Source of the DNA: Bacteroidales bacterium
Lineage (GTDB): Bacteria; Bacteroidota; Bacteroidia; Bacteroidales; UBA932
Reading direction: 5' to 3'
Assembly (NCBI GenBank): GCA_017509685.1
Contig: JAFWPA010000051.1
Location: 1-53,111 of the forward strand
Length of the DNA stretch: 53,111 nt
The notes under the pieces are model-generated. The model had not been told where the DNA came from and searched no databases. It saw only the letters and a list, made by a program, of their open reading frames with translations. The position numbers and the translations under genes were made by a program. This document shows positions 21,215 to 32,695 of this stretch, piece after piece (position 1 is the stretch's first letter; the number at the start of each line of letters is the position of its first letter).

Positions 21215-21246
21215 TTTGGGCGTATGCGGAAAAAATGTTACCTTTG
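21215..21246 (+). promoter_or_regulatory. Promoter of the ATP synthase operon
   Basis: TTTG (21215-21218), 20-base spacer, TACCTTTG (21239-21246), 24 bases before the atpD ATG. The only consensus promoter I find for the eight-gene operon. Confidence 0.85.
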
Positions 21247-27026: not shown

Positions 27027-27893
27027 ATGCCCACGTTAAAGGAAATAAAGGGACGCATTTCGTCGGTCAAGGGGACGCTGAAGATCACTTCGGCCATGAA
27101 ACTGGTGTCTTCGGCCAAACTGCGCAAGGCGCAGAAAGCCATCGAAGCCATGCGCCCCTACGAGGCCCAGCTCCAGGCCATGCTGGCCACCGTGGGCGGT
27201 ACTCTGAGCACGGATAGCGCCTCTACGGTGCACGGACCCGTCATGCCCGGCTCCGACCGGGCATCCCTGCCCAGCGCCATCGTGGCCATCGCGTCCAATT
27301 CCTCCCTTTGCGGCGGGTTCAACGCCAACGCCATTGCCAAGGTGCGTAGCGTGCGGCACGCGGGGGATGTGGTGTATTCCATCGGCCGTAAGATGGCCGA
27401 TGCCATGCGCAAGGACGGCTTTGCCAGTCCGGCCGATTTTACCGCCCTGTCCGACCATCCGGAGTACGCCCCGGCCGCAGCCCTGGTGGAAAAACTGCTG
27501 GAGGAGCAGCAGGACGGCCACTTTGACCGCGTGCTCCTGGTGTACAACCATTTTGTCTCCACCGCCCGTCAGGAAACTGTTGTGGAAGATTTGCTGTCCA
27601 CTACTATGGAAGGCTCTTCTTTTGATCCGTCCCTGTCCCCGGACGTAATCATCGAACCGGGCAGGAAGGAACTGCTGGAGATTCTGGAACCCAAAGTGAT
27701 GAAGCTCAAGCTGTACGCCGCCTTGCTGGACAGCGCCGCCGCCGAGCACGCCGCCCGCACCGTAGCCATGCAAACCGCCACGGACAACGCCGAAAACCTT
27801 CTTCAGGAACTCACCCTCCAGTACAACAAAGGCCGCCAGCAAAAAATCACCTCCGAAATCCTGGACCTCGCCGGCGGCCAGGCGCAGGAATAG
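27027..27893 (+). CDS. atpG: F1Fo ATP synthase subunit gamma
   Basis: Rotor shaft, 288 residues. N-terminal coiled-coil helix LKEIKGRISSVKGTLKITSAMKLVSSAKLRK-type sequence (MKLVSSAKLRKAQ is the hallmark), central Rossmann-like domain with SNSSLCGGFNANAIAK, and the C-terminal helix AMQTATDNAENLLQELTLQYNKGRQ followed by TSEILDLAGG. Last gene of the ATP synthase operon. No terminator is seen after it: 15 bases further on lies the left copy of the 26-bp inverted repeat that bounds the glycosyltransferase. Confidence 0.97.
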   Translation: MPTLKEIKGRISSVKGTLKITSAMKLVSSAKLRKAQKAIEAMRPYEAQLQAMLATVGGTLSTDSASTVHGPVMPGSDRASLPSAIVAIASNSSLCGGFNANAIAKVRSVRHAGDVVYSIGRKMADAMRKDGFASPADFTALSDHPEYAPAAALVEKLLEEQQDGHFDRVLLVYNHFVSTARQETVVEDLLSTTMEGSSFDPSLSPDVIIEPGRKELLEILEPKVMKLKLYAALLDSAAAEHAARTVAMQTATDNAENLLQELTLQYNKGRQQKITSEILDLAGGQAQE

Positions 27894-27907
27894 TTTTCCG
27901 TTACCAA

Positions 27908-27933
27908 TACAGGGTGCCCTATGCACTTCGGGC
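27908..27933 (+). repeat. Left copy of a perfect 26-bp inverted repeat flanking the glycosyltransferase gene
   Basis: Begins TACAGGGTGCCC and ends CACTTCGGGC. Its exact reverse complement is at 29488-29513, 1.6 kb away. The unit contains smaller internal symmetries (AGGG..CCCT; GTGC.....GCAC). It ends 11 bases before the preferred ATG at 27945. If the repeat is counted as 25 bp, the trinucleotide AAT flanks it outside on both ends, like a 3-bp target duplication. Confidence 0.9.
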
Positions 27934-27944
27934 CAAACCAATCT

Positions 27945-29411
27945 ATGAAAAAAGTAGGATTATTCATAGACACCTGGTATCCGATGGTGGACGGTGTCAT
28001 CAAGGTGGTGGACAATTACGCCCGCCGGCTCACGAAGTATTGCGGCGTCGTGGTGTTTTGCCCGGAGACGCGCGGCTACAGCAAGGAAGACGACGAAAAA
28101 CTGCCCTACAAGGTGGTACGCTGCCATTCTTTGCCGATAATCGGCTACGATTATGACCTCCCGGCACCGGTGCTGGATCCGGTCTTTGAAGCCCAAATCC
28201 TCAGCAGCGGCATTGACCTTGTGCACATCCATTCGCCGTTCTCGGTGGGCCTGGCCGGGGTCCTCTACGCAAAGCTCCACAAGCTTCCGGCGGTGGCCAC
28301 GCTCCACAGCCAGTACAAGCAGGACTTTGAGAAGCCGCTGCGCACCAAAATGGGCCTGAACGTTGTGATGGGCGGCATAATGCGCGTCTTCAACGCCTGC
28401 GACGAATGCTGGGCTGTCAACGCCGGCATCAAGGACCTCTATGAGGCCGATTATGGCCTCACCGCTCCCTGCAAGGTGCGTCTCAATGCAACGGACCATC
28501 GGCCCGTTGAGGACCCGGTAGAGGCGGCAAGGATAGTCAACGAGACCTACGGCGTCCCTGCCGACGCCACCGTTTTTCTATTCGTTGGCCGCATCAATTT
28601 CATAAAGAATATCGACTTCACCCTCCGTGCACTGGCTCGCGCCAAAGAGCTGGGCCTCAAGAACTTCCGTATGCTCTTCGCCGGTCGGGGGCAGGACGAG
28701 GATAAGCTATCGGCCCTTGTCCAAGAGCTTGGCCTGCAGGACGAGGTCATTATGTGCGGTCTCACGGACAGGCCAATGCTGGAGCGCCTCTATTCCCGCG
28801 CCAAGCTTTTCCTGTTCCCGTCGCTATACGACGCTAATTCGCTGGTGCAGATTGAGGCCGCCTGCCAGGGCACGCCCACGCTGTTCCTCGAAGGCGCCCG
28901 CACCGCCGCCACCGTCACCCCCGGCGTCAACGGCTATATATCGGCCCCCGGGGAAGATAATTACGCCAGGGCCATTCTGGACATTTTGGCCGATTCCGAC
29001 GCCTACGCCCGCATTTCCGCCGCCGCCCGCCGGGATTTGTATTTGAATTGGGACGACGTGGTCCGCGAAGTTTATGCCGATTACTGCGCCCTCTGCGGCG
29101 AGGAACCCGCCCCTCAGCGTGTAGACCGCCTGGGACTGGTTTATAGGGAGCTTCAAGAGCGTGTTTCTCAGGCCCTGCCGGCCCTGGAGGGAATTGTGAA
29201 GGACGTGGACGCCATCCATGAGCTGGAGGAGTACCTTGACTCCGGCCTCTGGCTCAAGGACTTTGAGGCCGATGAGCGCGGAGACCTTCCCGCCGACATC
29301 CACCGCGACGCCCTCACCGAAGACGCCGTCCCCGACCTCCTGGACGATATTCACGACCTCCGAACCCTGATGAACCGCTTCATCCACGCCACCGCCAAGC
29401 GCCGGAAATAG
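27945..29411 (+). CDS. GT4 family glycosyltransferase with C-terminal DUF4298-like domain
   Basis: 488 residues. The GT-B fold starts MKKVGLFIDTWYPMVDGVI, a start typical of diacylglycerol glucosyltransferase-like GT4 enzymes, and contains DLVHIHSPFSVG, ATLHSQYKQDFEKPL, FVGRINFIKNIDFTLRA and FLFPSLYDANSLVQIEAACQ; in the EX7E motif the first acidic residue is Asp. Residues about 393-488 form an extra helical tail with LDSGLWLKDFEADERGDLP and LTEDAVPDLLDDIHDL, closely resembling DUF4298. Likely makes a membrane glycolipid or surface glycan; acceptor unknown. An ATG at 27921 lies inside the inverted repeat and was rejected. No promoter is visible, so transcription probably comes from the ATP synthase operon. 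Confidence 0.88.
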   Translation: MKKVGLFIDTWYPMVDGVIKVVDNYARRLTKYCGVVVFCPETRGYSKEDDEKLPYKVVRCHSLPIIGYDYDLPAPVLDPVFEAQILSSGIDLVHIHSPFSVGLAGVLYAKLHKLPAVATLHSQYKQDFEKPLRTKMGLNVVMGGIMRVFNACDECWAVNAGIKDLYEADYGLTAPCKVRLNATDHRPVEDPVEAARIVNETYGVPADATVFLFVGRINFIKNIDFTLRALARAKELGLKNFRMLFAGRGQDEDKLSALVQELGLQDEVIMCGLTDRPMLERLYSRAKLFLFPSLYDANSLVQIEAACQGTPTLFLEGARTAATVTPGVNGYISAPGEDNYARAILDILADSDAYARISAAARRDLYLNWDDVVREVYADYCALCGEEPAPQRVDRLGLVYRELQERVSQALPALEGIVKDVDAIHELEEYLDSGLWLKDFEADERGDLPADIHRDALTEDAVPDLLDDIHDLRTLMNRFIHATAKRRK

Positions 29412-29741
29412 CGTCAGTGGCATTATTCGCTCCGGGAAGTATTGGTGTCAAAACCCTTCGTTCGCTGAAGACACGGGCGTCTACGCCGCCCGAAGTGCAT
29501 AGGGCACCCTGTAATATGTTAAATGCTCATGCTTTAACTAACTCATTATCAAGCACTTTACGCTACGAGCATAGGGGAGCGGGGATCTCAATGTGTACGT
29601 ACACCCACCCCCACGAGTGCTTTATGGGTAAAGAATTTCCCCGCAAGCGAATTTCACAATTGGCTGCGGGGATTATGGTAAGGTATCAATATTTATGTCT
29701 GATACCACATTATTCTAATATCGTGCCAAAACTGGCAAAAC
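29412..29741. other. 330-base intergenic region packed with inverted repeats
   Basis: No convincing gene. Contents: the right 26-bp repeat (29488-29513); GTTAAA/TTTAAC hairpin (29518-29538); AAGCACT (29551-29557) with AGTGCTT (29616-29622), enclosing the 12-bp palindrome GTGTACGTACAC (29593-29604); CCCCGCA (29639-29645) with TGCGGGG (29665-29671), extended inward by GC/GC and AATT/AATT; and GGTATCA (29682-29688) with TGATACC (29700-29706). From about 29515 on it is clearly more AT-rich than the flanks. No T-run typical of an intrinsic terminator. Confidence 0.7.
29488..29513 (-). repeat. Right copy of the 26-bp inverted repeat
   Basis: Exact reverse complement of 27908-27933, starting GCCCGAAGTGC and ending GGGCACCCTGTA. 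Lies 76 bases after the glycosyltransferase stop codon. The AT-rich hairpin region begins directly outside it. Confidence 0.9.
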
Positions 29742-30668
29742 TTATCTAATTTTCTTTTTCTTGTTGGTTTTCGGGTTCCATTCGCCGTAAATTTCACTTA
29801 CGTTGCCGGCGGTGATAAAGCCGTGGATGTCGTTGGCCTTGATGTAATCCATGAGGCTGGCGAACTCGTTCTTGGTGAGGAGGGCCTGGATTTCGATATT
29901 CTGATGGCCGTTGTAGCCGCCCGTTACGTTGTACAGGGAGCAGCCGCGCTGGAGGTCTTCAATGATGTATTTGCGGATGCGTTCGTGTTGGGAGGTGATG
30001 ATGCACACGCGTTTGCGGCGGTTGAGGCCGGCGGTGAAGTAGTCCAGGGCCAGGCCGTTGATCCAGGTGCCGATGAGGCCGATGACCACCAGCCGGAAGG
30101 GGTTGATGGCGAAAGCCGTGCAGCAGATGATGGCGCCGGCTACGGAAACGGAGGTGCCGATCTCGAAGTGCAGGTACTTGTTGATAATCTTGGCCAGGAT
30201 GTCCAGGCCACCGGTGGAGGCGTTGATGTGGAAGAGGATGGTCTGGGATGCGCTGAGGATGAGCACAAAGCACAGAAGGTCGAACCAGGGGTCTCCCATC
30301 ACGGAGGTGTCGCCGGGTTCCATGATGCGGCTTACGGGCAGTACCTTTTCCCAAAATTCGATGAAGGGACCCAGGATGAGGGCGGTGTACACGGTTTTGG
30401 CGCCGAATTCGTGGCCGATGAGCAGCCAGGCCATTACCAGCAGGATGGCGTTGATGATGGTAACCACCAGGGATACCTTCACATTCATGCCGAACAGGCC
30501 GAAAATACCGGAGATGACCATGGACAGACCGGTGATGGACCCGATGACCAGATTGCTGGGCATGAGGAAATAATACACGGCAGCGGCGGCAATGAGCATG
30601 GCTACCGTCATGATAAAGAATTCCTTCCAGAACTTCCAGGTTCCCAGTGTGGCGAGAAGGTCTTTCAT
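29742..30668 (-). CDS. YitT-family membrane protein with C-terminal DUF2179 domain
   Basis: 308 residues. Five to six membrane helices in the first 210 residues (FFIMTVAMLIAAAAVYYFLM, VSLVVTIINAILLVMAWLL, FDLLCFVLILSASQTILF, SVAGAIICCTAFAI), with STGGLDILAKIINKY, the pattern shared by YitT proteins. The soluble C-terminus (about 215-300) is DUF2179-like: RKRVCIITSQHERIRKYI, GYNGHQNIEIQALLT, FITAGNVSEIYGEW. The charged tail ends NKKKKIR. Function of the family is not established, transport has been suggested. Stands alone, with a variant -7 box TACCTTTA. Confidence 0.87.
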   Translation of the reverse strand: MKDLLATLGTWKFWKEFFIMTVAMLIAAAAVYYFLMPSNLVIGSITGLSMVISGIFGLFGMNVKVSLVVTIINAILLVMAWLLIGHEFGAKTVYTALILGPFIEFWEKVLPVSRIMEPGDTSVMGDPWFDLLCFVLILSASQTILFHINASTGGLDILAKIINKYLHFEIGTSVSVAGAIICCTAFAINPFRLVVIGLIGTWINGLALDYFTAGLNRRKRVCIITSQHERIRKYIIEDLQRGCSLYNVTGGYNGHQNIEIQALLTKNEFASLMDYIKANDIHGFITAGNVSEIYGEWNPKTNKKKKIR

Positions 30669-30688
30669 TTTGTTTAGTTTTAGCTTCG

Positions 30689-30696
30689 TAAAGGTA
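30689..30696 (-). promoter_or_regulatory. Variant -7 box for the YitT-like gene
   Basis: Minus-strand TACCTTTA, one base off TAnnTTTG, 20 bases before the ATG at 30668. No clear -33. Confidence 0.4.
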
Positions 30697-30709
30697 ATGA
30701 TTTTTTCAG

Positions 30710-30717
30710 TAACTTTG
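30710..30717 (+). promoter_or_regulatory. -7 box of the HAD/OPA transporter/dipeptidase operon
   Basis: TAACTTTG, 10 bases before the ATG at 30728, giving a very short leader. A TTCG at 30685-30688 (21-base spacer) could serve as a weak -33. Confidence 0.6.
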
Positions 30718-30727
30718 CATCACCATC

Positions 30728-31339
30728 ATGATAAAAGCCATCGTATTTGATATAGGAGGAGTGCTCATCGGCCTGGACCTGGGCCGATGCATCCACGCGT
30801 TCCAGGAAATCCTGGGCTATGAACGGATCACCAGTCTGCTGGACCCTTATCACCAGAAGGGAATCTACGGCGATATGGAAGGCGGCCTTATCAGCGCCGA
30901 CGACTTCCGCCGCATGGTGCTGGCCGAATCCCGCCCGGGCTGCACGCCCGCCGACGTAGACCGCTGTATGGGCGCCCTTATCACGGGGATGGCCCCGGAC
31001 ACGGTGGCCACGGTGAAGGAACTGGCCACGCGGTATCCGCTGTACCTGCTGTCCAACAACAACCCCATTGCCATGGGCATCATCAACGGTATCTTCCGGG
31101 ACAATGGCATAGAACCTTCCACTATCTTCAAGGGCCAGTTCATTTCCAGCGAGATGCGCATGCTCAAACCCTCGCAGGCTATCTACCGGGCAACCATAGC
31201 CGGTATCGGGCTTCCGGCAGGGGAGATCCTCTTCATCGACGACAACGAGGCCAACGTGTTGGCTGCACGGGAGGCGGGGATGCAGGCGCGGGTGTATGTG
31301 CCCGGCACTCCTTTATCGGCCCTCTTATCCGACTGCTGA
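30728..31339 (+). CDS. HAD family phosphatase (YihX-like)
   Basis: 203 residues. HAD motif I VFDIGGVLI with nucleophile Asp8, motif II LYLLSNNNP, motif III lysine in MLKPSQAIY and motif IV ILFIDDNEANVLAAREAG. The D-x-G-x-V form of motif I, together with a helical cap after it, is typical of YihX-type sugar-phosphate phosphatases. Starts an operon with an organophosphate transporter (3-base gap) and an M20 dipeptidase. A phosphatase next to an organophosphate:phosphate antiporter suggests a shared sugar-phosphate substrate, which is inference. Confidence 0.88.
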   Translation: MIKAIVFDIGGVLIGLDLGRCIHAFQEILGYERITSLLDPYHQKGIYGDMEGGLISADDFRRMVLAESRPGCTPADVDRCMGALITGMAPDTVATVKELATRYPLYLLSNNNPIAMGIINGIFRDNGIEPSTIFKGQFISSEMRMLKPSQAIYRATIAGIGLPAGEILFIDDNEANVLAAREAGMQARVYVPGTPLSALLSDC

Positions 31340-31342
31340 CCT

Positions 31343-32695
31343 ATGTCCCTGTACTCCTACTTCCGTATCAGCAAGCCCCTGGCGCAGAAAGTGCCTGCGG
31401 CGCAGGTGGAGAGTACGTACAGGCGGCTCCGTTCCCGCACCTTCTGGGGCGTGACGGTGGCCTATACCCTCTATTACGTGTGCCGGATGACGCTGGGCGT
31501 GGTGAAACAGCCGCTCATCGACGGCGGCATCCTTACGGCGGGGCAGCTGGGTATCATCGGGTCGGCCTTCTACTTCGTGTATGCGGTGGGCAAGTTCCTG
31601 AACGGGTTCATCGCCGATTACTGCAACATCCGCCGGTTCATGGCGGTGGGAATCGGCATATCGGCCCTGGTGAACCTGCTGCTGGGTCTGGCCGGGCTGC
31701 TGAACGGGGCGCTGGGGTTCGGGTCCGTGCTGCTGTTCGTCTTCTTTGCGGTCCTGTGGGGCGTGAACGGCTGGATGCAGTCCATGGGCTCGCCGCCCGG
31801 AACCATCAGCCTTTCCCGCTGGTTCCCGCTGCGGCAAAGGGGTACGCGTTACAGCATCTTCAGTTCCACGCCGCAGCTGGGCAAGGCCGTTTCTATGATT
31901 ATGACCGGCTTCATTGTGGCGGCGGCGGGCTGGCAGTGGGGCTTCCTGGCCGCCGGCGTGGCGGGTATCATCGGCCTGGTGGTTTCGCTGGTTTTCATCT
32001 CCGACACGCCCGAGAGCGAGGGTCTGCCTTCCGTGCAGGAACTCTCCGGGGAAGAGGTGAAGCCGCTGGACCAAAAGCCCACCCGGGAGCTTCAGAAATG
32101 GGTTTTCAAACATCCGGGCATCTGGGTCATTGCCATTTCCACGGCTTTTCTCTATATTACCCAGCATGCGGTGAGCGACTGGGGCGTGCTTTTCCTGCAG
32201 AAGCAGAAGGCGTTTACACTGGAGGGGGCTACGCAGATTATCGGCCTGGCCGAAATCTTTGGCGTGGCGGGCAACCTGGCCGCCGGCTGGCTGTCCGACG
32301 TCCTTTTCCGCGGCAACCGGGCCCGGCCTGTGATTGCGGCCGGCATCCTGGCGGTATTCTCCCTGGCGGGATTCCTGTTTCTGGACGGCGGTTTCGCCTT
32401 GAACATGGTCTGTGTGGCCGTGTTCAGCTGCTCTTTCTCCGTGGTATTCTGCATTGTGGCCGGCCTGATGGCCCTGGACTTTGTTCCCCGTAAAGCCACC
32501 GGTGCAGCCCTGGGCATCGTGGGCATCTCCAGTTATGCTGCCGCCGGCCTCCAGAGCGTGGTCAGTGGTTATCTCATCCAGGGGTTCGAGACCGATGGCC
32601 TCTTCAACTTCACCCCCGTTTCCATTTTCTGGATTGTGGCCTGCTTCCTGGCCTTCTCCCTGCCGGTTATTGGTTGGAAATACTTGAAACGATAA
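31343..32695 (+). CDS. MFS transporter, organophosphate:phosphate antiporter (OPA) type
   Basis: 450 residues with about 12 membrane helices and a cytoplasmic N-terminus. The sequence RSRTFWGVTVAYTLYYVCR near residue 32 and GILTAGQLGIIGSAFYFVYA then GKFLNGFIADYCNIRRFMA follow the GlpT/UhpT/UhpC pattern (family signature around helices 2-3). QSMGSPPGTISLSRWFP and AAGLQSVVSGYLIQGFE are also typical. It may import glycerol 3-phosphate or a hexose phosphate, or act as a UhpC-like sensor, although no cognate two-component system is nearby. Cotranscribed between the HAD phosphatase and dipeptidase. Confidence 0.88.
   Translation: MSLYSYFRISKPLAQKVPAAQVESTYRRLRSRTFWGVTVAYTLYYVCRMTLGVVKQPLIDGGILTAGQLGIIGSAFYFVYAVGKFLNGFIADYCNIRRFMAVGIGISALVNLLLGLAGLLNGALGFGSVLLFVFFAVLWGVNGWMQSMGSPPGTISLSRWFPLRQRGTRYSIFSSTPQLGKAVSMIMTGFIVAAAGWQWGFLAAGVAGIIGLVVSLVFISDTPESEGLPSVQELSGEEVKPLDQKPTRELQKWVFKHPGIWVIAISTAFLYITQHAVSDWGVLFLQKQKAFTLEGATQIIGLAEIFGVAGNLAAGWLSDVLFRGNRARPVIAAGILAVFSLAGFLFLDGGFALNMVCVAVFSCSFSVVFCIVAGLMALDFVPRKATGAALGIVGISSYAAAGLQSVVSGYLIQGFETDGLFNFTPVSIFWIVACFLAFSLPVIGWKYLKR

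Follow-up and report, generated by a model that had tools for sequence, protein, structure and literature searches.

The window, as the whole stretch of DNA analysed here is called, comprises 53,111 nucleotides and represents an entire contig of a Bacteroidales MAG (G000). In it, a glycosyltransferase gene lies between atpG, the last gene of the atp cluster, and a gene encoding a YitT-family membrane protein, and is enclosed by a perfect inverted repeat. The features of the locus, with their evidence in brackets, are as follows:

21215..21246, plus strand: Bacteroidota-type promoter match upstream of the atp genes (pattern scan)
27027..27893, plus strand: atpG, last atp gene before the segment (Pfam PF00231)
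27894..29629, no strand: segment found in G000 and missing from the co-linear relative G078 (locus L241, in which atpG is followed by the sequence of window position 29630 onward)
27908..27933, plus strand: putative left arm of a palindromic element, 26 bp (sequence; inner 18 nt compared with three other G000 copies)
27945..29411, plus strand: GT4 glycosyltransferase fused to DUF4298 (Pfam; the orthologues start at the site corresponding to 27945)
29139..29363, plus strand: C-terminal DUF4298 domain of the fused protein, at residues 407-481 in the 496-aa reading (Pfam)
29422..29451, minus strand: sigma-70-like match, 11/12, antisense to the glycosyltransferase (scan; a consensus of little weight in Bacteroidota)
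29459..29513, plus strand: putative right half of the element core together with the arm (BLAST; covariance model R1)
29488..29513, minus strand: putative right arm, exact reverse complement of the left (sequence, repeat search)
29630..29732, plus strand: conserved region at the yitT 3' end, ancestral neighbour of the site (BLAST: G005, G019, G028, G034)
29742..30668, minus strand: YitT-family membrane protein, ancestral neighbour (Pfam PF02588)

The sequence TACAGGGTGCCCTATGCACTTCGGGC at 27908-27933 recurs as its exact reverse complement at 29488-29513, with a spacing of 1554 nt. Reading of the sequence and a repeat search thus agree with the first-pass annotation, which had described a perfect 26-bp inverted repeat, 1.55 kb apart, around one gene. 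This pair is the longest exact inverted repeat in the 53-kb window among those up to 5 kb apart; the next longest measures 18 bp (31018/35158) and lies between two genes encoding similar residues. In 40 dinucleotide shuffles of the window, the longest inverted repeat reached only 13-15 bp, bearing out the earlier statement that chance is excluded. When further copies of the 26-mer were sought in the 79%-complete, 2.3-Mb MAG, none with up to three mismatches was found, making it unique to this locus, but diverged relatives of the 26-mer do exist.

The arms enclose one ORF only (27921/27945-29411), the alternative ATG at 27921 being located inside the left arm. Many GT4 families of NCBIfam were matched, all far below their curated cut-offs, and the substrate is not indicated. 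The C-terminal DUF4298 domain, overlooked in the first-pass annotation, is missing from all eight complete orthologue matches of the glycosyltransferase (G009, G014, G019, G034, G061, G062, G075, and G078), whereas G005 and G122 provided partial matches only. DUF4298-like stretches occur separately elsewhere in relatives.

Relative to G078, the segment 27894-29629 is an insertion: in this genome atpG is directly followed by the sequence found from 29630 onward in the window, with yitT in the same orientation, and the glycosyltransferase gene (83%) sits on another contig. A match to atpG was detected in 49 out of 61 genomes, from which 30 loci were fetched, and only in one of them, the window's own, does the glycosyltransferase adjoin atpG. 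Once the window itself and L244, which ends inside atpG, were dropped, no glycosyltransferase was found behind atpG in the 28 evaluable relatives, within the at most 1.5 kb inspected in each (0.9 kb in L251). The closest of 11 relatives by atpA (G028, 94%; 87% complete) gave no glycosyltransferase match at E 1e-30. By eye, the orthologues occupy at least six neighbourhoods, with G019, G061, and G062 sharing at least one neighbour. Mobility of the gene by means of repeats in relatives was considered and discarded, as no inverted repeat of at least 16 bp surrounds the glycosyltransferase in L004-L008; a 15-bp pair in L004 (207/2948), located in neighbouring genes, is probably due to chance. Presence of this glycosyltransferase and its repeats at an identical position in every relative, an outcome that the first-pass annotation had regarded as adverse to its proposals, is not what the relatives show, and a gene between arms behind atpG was found in this genome only among those read. 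Since gene order is labile in the genus, the position or the move of the glycosyltransferase alone proves little and is no proof of special mobility. Relative to the window, 29630-32682 is inverted behind atpG in G028, and about 29640-30664 is inverted in G019 and G005.

Inside the right arm, a further stretch of about 30 bp belonging to a dispersed repeat (29459-29487) had also gone unnoticed in the first-pass annotation. A BLAST search with 29409-29742 as query matched 29459-29511 to contig C9 of G000 (87%, E 7e-10) and 29469-29510 to contig C61 (90%, E 1.3e-9), and the same right-end part also matched elements of G022 and G019. The sole window match of covariance model R1 was 29408-29497 (24.9 bits, E 1e-5; runner-up E 0.67). 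The right end of the window copy reads ...GAAGACACGGGCGTCTACGCCGCCCGAAG followed by the arm. With up to three mismatches, this right-end motif was found at four places in G000, including the window, and at single places in 6 out of 80 relatives; the sites of four of those six relatives were read and proved to be diverged copies of this element. In G000, the 23-mer pattern of this search was present without mismatch on C9, C56, and C61, and with two mismatches on C10. The G000 copies on C61, C9, and C10 are complete elements, with arms resembling those of the window. The 22-base core of the 26-mer, with up to two mismatches, was absent from 100 relatives and had one further site in its own genome, C61:56205, where a complete element of about 140 bp begins that ends in ...ACACGGGCGTCTATGCCGCCCGAAGGGCACAGGGCAACCTT. 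Arms are more similar to one another within the G000 lineage than in the family at large: over its inner 18 nt, the window arm is identical at 15-17 positions to the left arms of three other G000 copies. These exhibit 1-2 mismatches per 22 between their own two arms; the arms at both ends of the window copy are complementary at 26 out of 26 positions. With its right end matching other copies of a dispersed palindromic element, the inverted repeat can be accounted for as the two arms of such an element.

In the window copy, the interior of this structure is lost or degraded. The conserved right core CCCGTTCACGAAGxCACGGGCGxCTACG is present, although GTTCACGAAG shows an additional base and a single change. 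The left core CGGTACGGGCC..CTATCCCTCCC is absent behind the left arm, where the bases are CAAACCAATCTATG, and model R1 found nothing there better than E 6.1. The left end retains only the arm and about eight conserved bases (CTTCGGGCC) before the leader of the glycosyltransferase gene starts. With the left core gone beyond these bases, membership of the left end in the family rests on the arm and, since the right half is kept, the window was filed as a damaged copy and not as a complete member.

The element consists of a conserved core of about 55-105 bp and long arms, mostly of 15-30 bp, whose sequence differs between copies. A core pattern with up to two mismatches, which misses degenerate copies, was found in 72 out of 151 genomes in the genus, counting that of the window, with a maximum of 17 places per genome, and the reversed control pattern produced one match. 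Order-wide, the core pattern was present in 3 out of 295 genomes, corresponding to the window's own and to 2 out of 293 genomes of other genera: G087, with five places, and G368, with one place and two mismatches. Nothing element-like was read around the latter match, which is probably due to chance. Among the matches listed (80 of 120 stretches), the organisms were Bacteroidales, Bacteroidia, and one Bacteroidaceae MAG, and included Candidatus Cryptobacteroides and Candidatus Merdivivens. An inverted arm was detected at most 250 bp upstream of 119 out of 174 right-half motifs in the fetched loci; 54 had no arm at the threshold, including copies cut by contig ends, and the motifs overlap, so that some may be one copy fetched twice. 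Only one of the 174 motifs had a distant arm alone, an 11-mer that is probably a chance match. No second copy with a gene between its arms was found among these motifs, a search that would miss copies as degenerate as that of the window.

The arms are specific to each copy. The pairwise identity of their outer 10 nt was 28%, versus 27% in shuffled sequences (n=81, ungapped), and the right core was 95% identical (n=102), a value inflated by the fact that the copies had been found by this motif. In an alignment of 46 copies, hand-picked out of 104 for moderate length and variety, 9 of the 12 predicted core pairs had changed on both sides. Compensating changes were also observed in the arms: two between L188 and L324 (T-A to C-G and A-T to G-C, by eye), and likewise two between L131 and L223. 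The copies of L171 and L213 measure 125 bp, and their apical loop holds a long terminator-like hairpin between A and T runs. A larger repeat unit in G105 (L076-L088) contains many copies whose arms are nearly identical, in contrast to the copy-specific arms seen otherwise. The copies of L298 and L299 (G087) come from another family of the order and are found within a longer repeated stretch, at which contigs start or end.

The AAT trinucleotide that the first-pass annotation had seen just outside both ends, taking the repeat as 25 bp, is real, but a fixed target-site duplication is absent in 103 copies of the family. No length from 2 to 10 stands out, identical flanks at the arm boundary being found in 5 out of 103 copies for 3-mers (1.6 expected) and in 0 or 1 out of 103 for each length from 4 to 10. 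As had been stated, there is no transposase inside, no such ORF being seen between the arms. A RAYT/Y1 transposase was contemplated as the mover of the family: elements were present in 46 out of 78 genomes with PF01797 and in 7 out of 23 without it (p 0.019 by Fisher's test, with no correction for kinship or completeness and with 3 of the 23 placed by elimination), and G001 and G013 contain 11 copies each with no Y1 match. This association is weak and confounded, and no convincing transposase link emerged. Other candidate relationships were discarded as well. When the window and seven copies were compared with Rfam at gathering thresholds, the only hit was a tRNA. No match to phages was found, and among plasmids only Azospirillum matches appeared (14 records), with no single place covering 80% of the query. 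In the four Azospirillum regions read, of the 10 listed, the common part is the centre only, CCCTCCC..GGGCCCCTCCC. Repeats with roughly the element's centre, CCCTCCCACCGC..GCGGCGGG.CCCCTCCC, occur in the Azospirillum plasmid loci L304-L307, and this likeness is probably convergent.

Copies of the element occur within open frames of conserved genes. A count of spanning open frames gave 63, with several per element and many of them spurious. Pfam searches of seven element-bearing stretches revealed matches on both sides of the element in four (xerC-like, gltD-like, aminotransferase, the second match being weak in this case, and ribF-like) and on one side in three (tilS-, pmbA/tldD-, and uvrD-like). 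The aminotransferase site was compared across 31 loci, consisting of L188 and 30 others fetched from the 73 out of 151 genomes with a match, elements being recognised by loose patterns. In five of them (L188, L324, L327, L331, and L332) an element is present in frame, in a variable linker. The close homologues L319, L321, L322, and L323 have no element and show a 16-residue loop, and L320 carries only a right-half remnant. The possibility that the arms are duplicated target sequence was dismissed: by eye, and at this one site, no resemblance exists between either arm and the empty loops, which suggests that the arms arrived together with the element. In L327, L331, and L332 this linker is occupied by elements that differ in subfamily or orientation and have different arms, which marks it as an insertion hot spot, and other long in-frame inserts, not recognised by the element test, are present in L318, L329, L335, and L345. 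Recurrent peptides encoded by the element, identified by eye, include PPVHEATGGHG, GPLPFTRPRAAT, and AARGLVNGR. In-frame insertion in conserved genes is a property of the family and does not apply to the window copy.

Promoters in Bacteroidota follow the pattern TTTG-N17-23-TAnnTTTG, for which the window contains 7 matches versus 0.31 expected. One of them precedes the atp genes, and no match was found on either strand between 21246 and 36513. The first-pass annotation had seen no promoter inside the left end, and none of this pattern lies in the segment. A sigma-70-like scan, however, gave an 11/12 match inside the right end, on the minus strand at 29451-29422; four matches of that grade, all on the minus strand, were detected in 27700-29760, versus 1.1 expected. 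As no terminator-like site was found between atpG and the glycosyltransferase gene, the latter is probably expressed by read-through from the atp promoter.

Taken together, the option that fits best among those put forward in the first-pass annotation is a non-autonomous element with a passenger gene, its ends belonging to a dispersed family and the segment being absent from the relatives readable behind atpG. The repeats would be the arms of one damaged, dispersed palindromic element with a gene between them, located behind atpG and not expected to invert, a reading to which we assign a probability of roughly three in four. According to this proposal, the element would insert, arms included, into intergenic and coding DNA, and in frame in the genes examined. 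In the window copy, half of the core would have been lost on the left, and a 1.5-kb stretch with the GT4-DUF4298 gene would have come to lie between the arms, the gene having either entered the element or come with it. Transcription of the glycosyltransferase by atp read-through would then allow the arms to pair in the mRNA, or they might do so as a DNA cruciform, and the segment would keep its orientation. The window is known from one MAG assembly, with one genome per species.

Two origins remain for the window copy: entry of the gene into a single element, or independent formation of the left repeat. In the second case, a degenerate element would lie behind the glycosyltransferase gene, and the copy at 27908 would be an inverted copy of its arm generated by template switching, or the leftover of another element. 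The covariance model lends this some credit, since it aligns 29408-29497 as a whole degenerate core, with a weak left half, and so do the family arms, which change and yet stay complementary, as a copying process would give. Nevertheless, the left repeat stops where the left arms of other G000 copies pass into the core (CTTCGGGCC), and long-distance arms were not seen elsewhere, so that such a double event is possible but doubtful. An error of assembly, namely a chimeric join of the MAG at a repeated element, deserves mention because such repeats break assemblies, as illustrated by the G087 contigs C10, C13, C23, and C27, which start or end at element copies. However, on the window contig the segment is flanked by its ancestral neighbours, atpG on the left and yitT on the right, as in G078, and the 26-mer is found only here in the genome, making an artefact very improbable.

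The remaining proposals ascribe a function to the repeat. In an invertible cassette, a recombinase would flip the segment, thereby joining the glycosyltransferase gene to the atp transcript or parting it from it. Such a switch would be in keeping with a perfect inverted repeat around one whole gene, with an enzyme of glycan type devoid of a Bacteroidota-type promoter of its own, and with the single internal sigma-70-like match (11/12), which lies close to the right end on the minus strand. However, the repeats belong, as arms, to a dispersed element that in its other copies has only a short core between them, the orthologues in L004-L008 lack such repeats, and a Pfam scan of 15 window ORFs revealed no recombinase, the remaining window ORFs having been read by eye. 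Moreover, near-perfect arms are common in a family whose cores are too short for switches, so a perfect repeat requires neither recombinase nor inversion. The cassette, which had headed the options of the first-pass annotation, therefore finds little support and is very unlikely. The other functional proposal, a duplex between the untranslated ends of the message, fares better as physics than as regulation. Provided that the arms are co-transcribed, pairing follows: the arm duplex reaches -56.1 kcal/mol, all 26 pairs form in the MFE fold of 27894-29560, and the left arm lies 11 nt before the start codon at 27945, so that the predicted pairing may affect start-codon access or 3' stability. On the other hand, any GC-rich inverted repeat of 26 bp would pair likewise, none of the relatives read showed the arrangement, and the duplex would be a consequence rather than an origin. 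A regulatory role, in which paired arms at the ends of the glycosyltransferase message control translation or stability, is accordingly unlikely.

In the Bacteroidales, invertible capsule promoters are governed by Mpi/Tsr systems. The locus described here shares with them inverted repeats near a glycan gene, but differs in that the repeats surround an entire gene, no Bacteroidota-type promoter was found between them, and they come from a dispersed palindrome family. Like MITEs, the elements are short and dispersed, have inverted ends, and are found within and between genes; unlike MITEs, they show no fixed target-site duplication (103 copies), no terminal repeat is common to the copies of the genus, the outer arms being at random-level identity, and no parent transposase was identified. 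The nearest described kind appears to be the Rickettsia palindromic element (RPE), reportedly the subject of work by Ogata and colleagues in 2000 and 2002. RPEs are about 150 bp long and are found in frame in unrelated genes (PMC10969869). By that description, the likeness lies in palindromes of similar size, present in many copies, in frame in unrelated genes and with a recurrent encoded peptide (PMC10969869). The family described here differs in its host, which belongs to another phylum, in its copy-specific arms with compensating changes, and in the one copy with a gene between the arms. In Nematomorpha mitochondria, perfect inverted repeats are kept inside working genes and both arms encode conserved protein (PMC6649704). 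The presence of inverted repeats inside working genes is common to both cases, but the element described here sits, where tested, in a variable linker and not in conserved protein. Among the titles and abstract openings listed from an open-access library, none describes such an element for Bacteroidales, although it may still be in print. The window copy is best read as a damaged, gene-carrying member of a new RPE-like family.

A bolder proposal, drawn from a single case as regards cargo, is that of a hairpin family that enters genes without breaking them, rewrites both arms together, which would preserve their complementarity even though copies have hardly any arm sequence in common, and can carry a host gene. 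We consider it rather unlikely as a whole but, if true, the window would hold the first cargo-bearing copy, and a palindrome, not a transposon, would have brought a gene to its place behind the atp operon. In-frame palindromic elements are known from Rickettsia, and here a family with copy-specific, complementary arms is found in uncultured gut Bacteroidales, whose filled, empty, and half-deleted sites make it possible to study how selfish hairpins enter genes and by what means their arms are kept alike. For the window, a story of phase variation is replaced by a testable one of a passenger gene.
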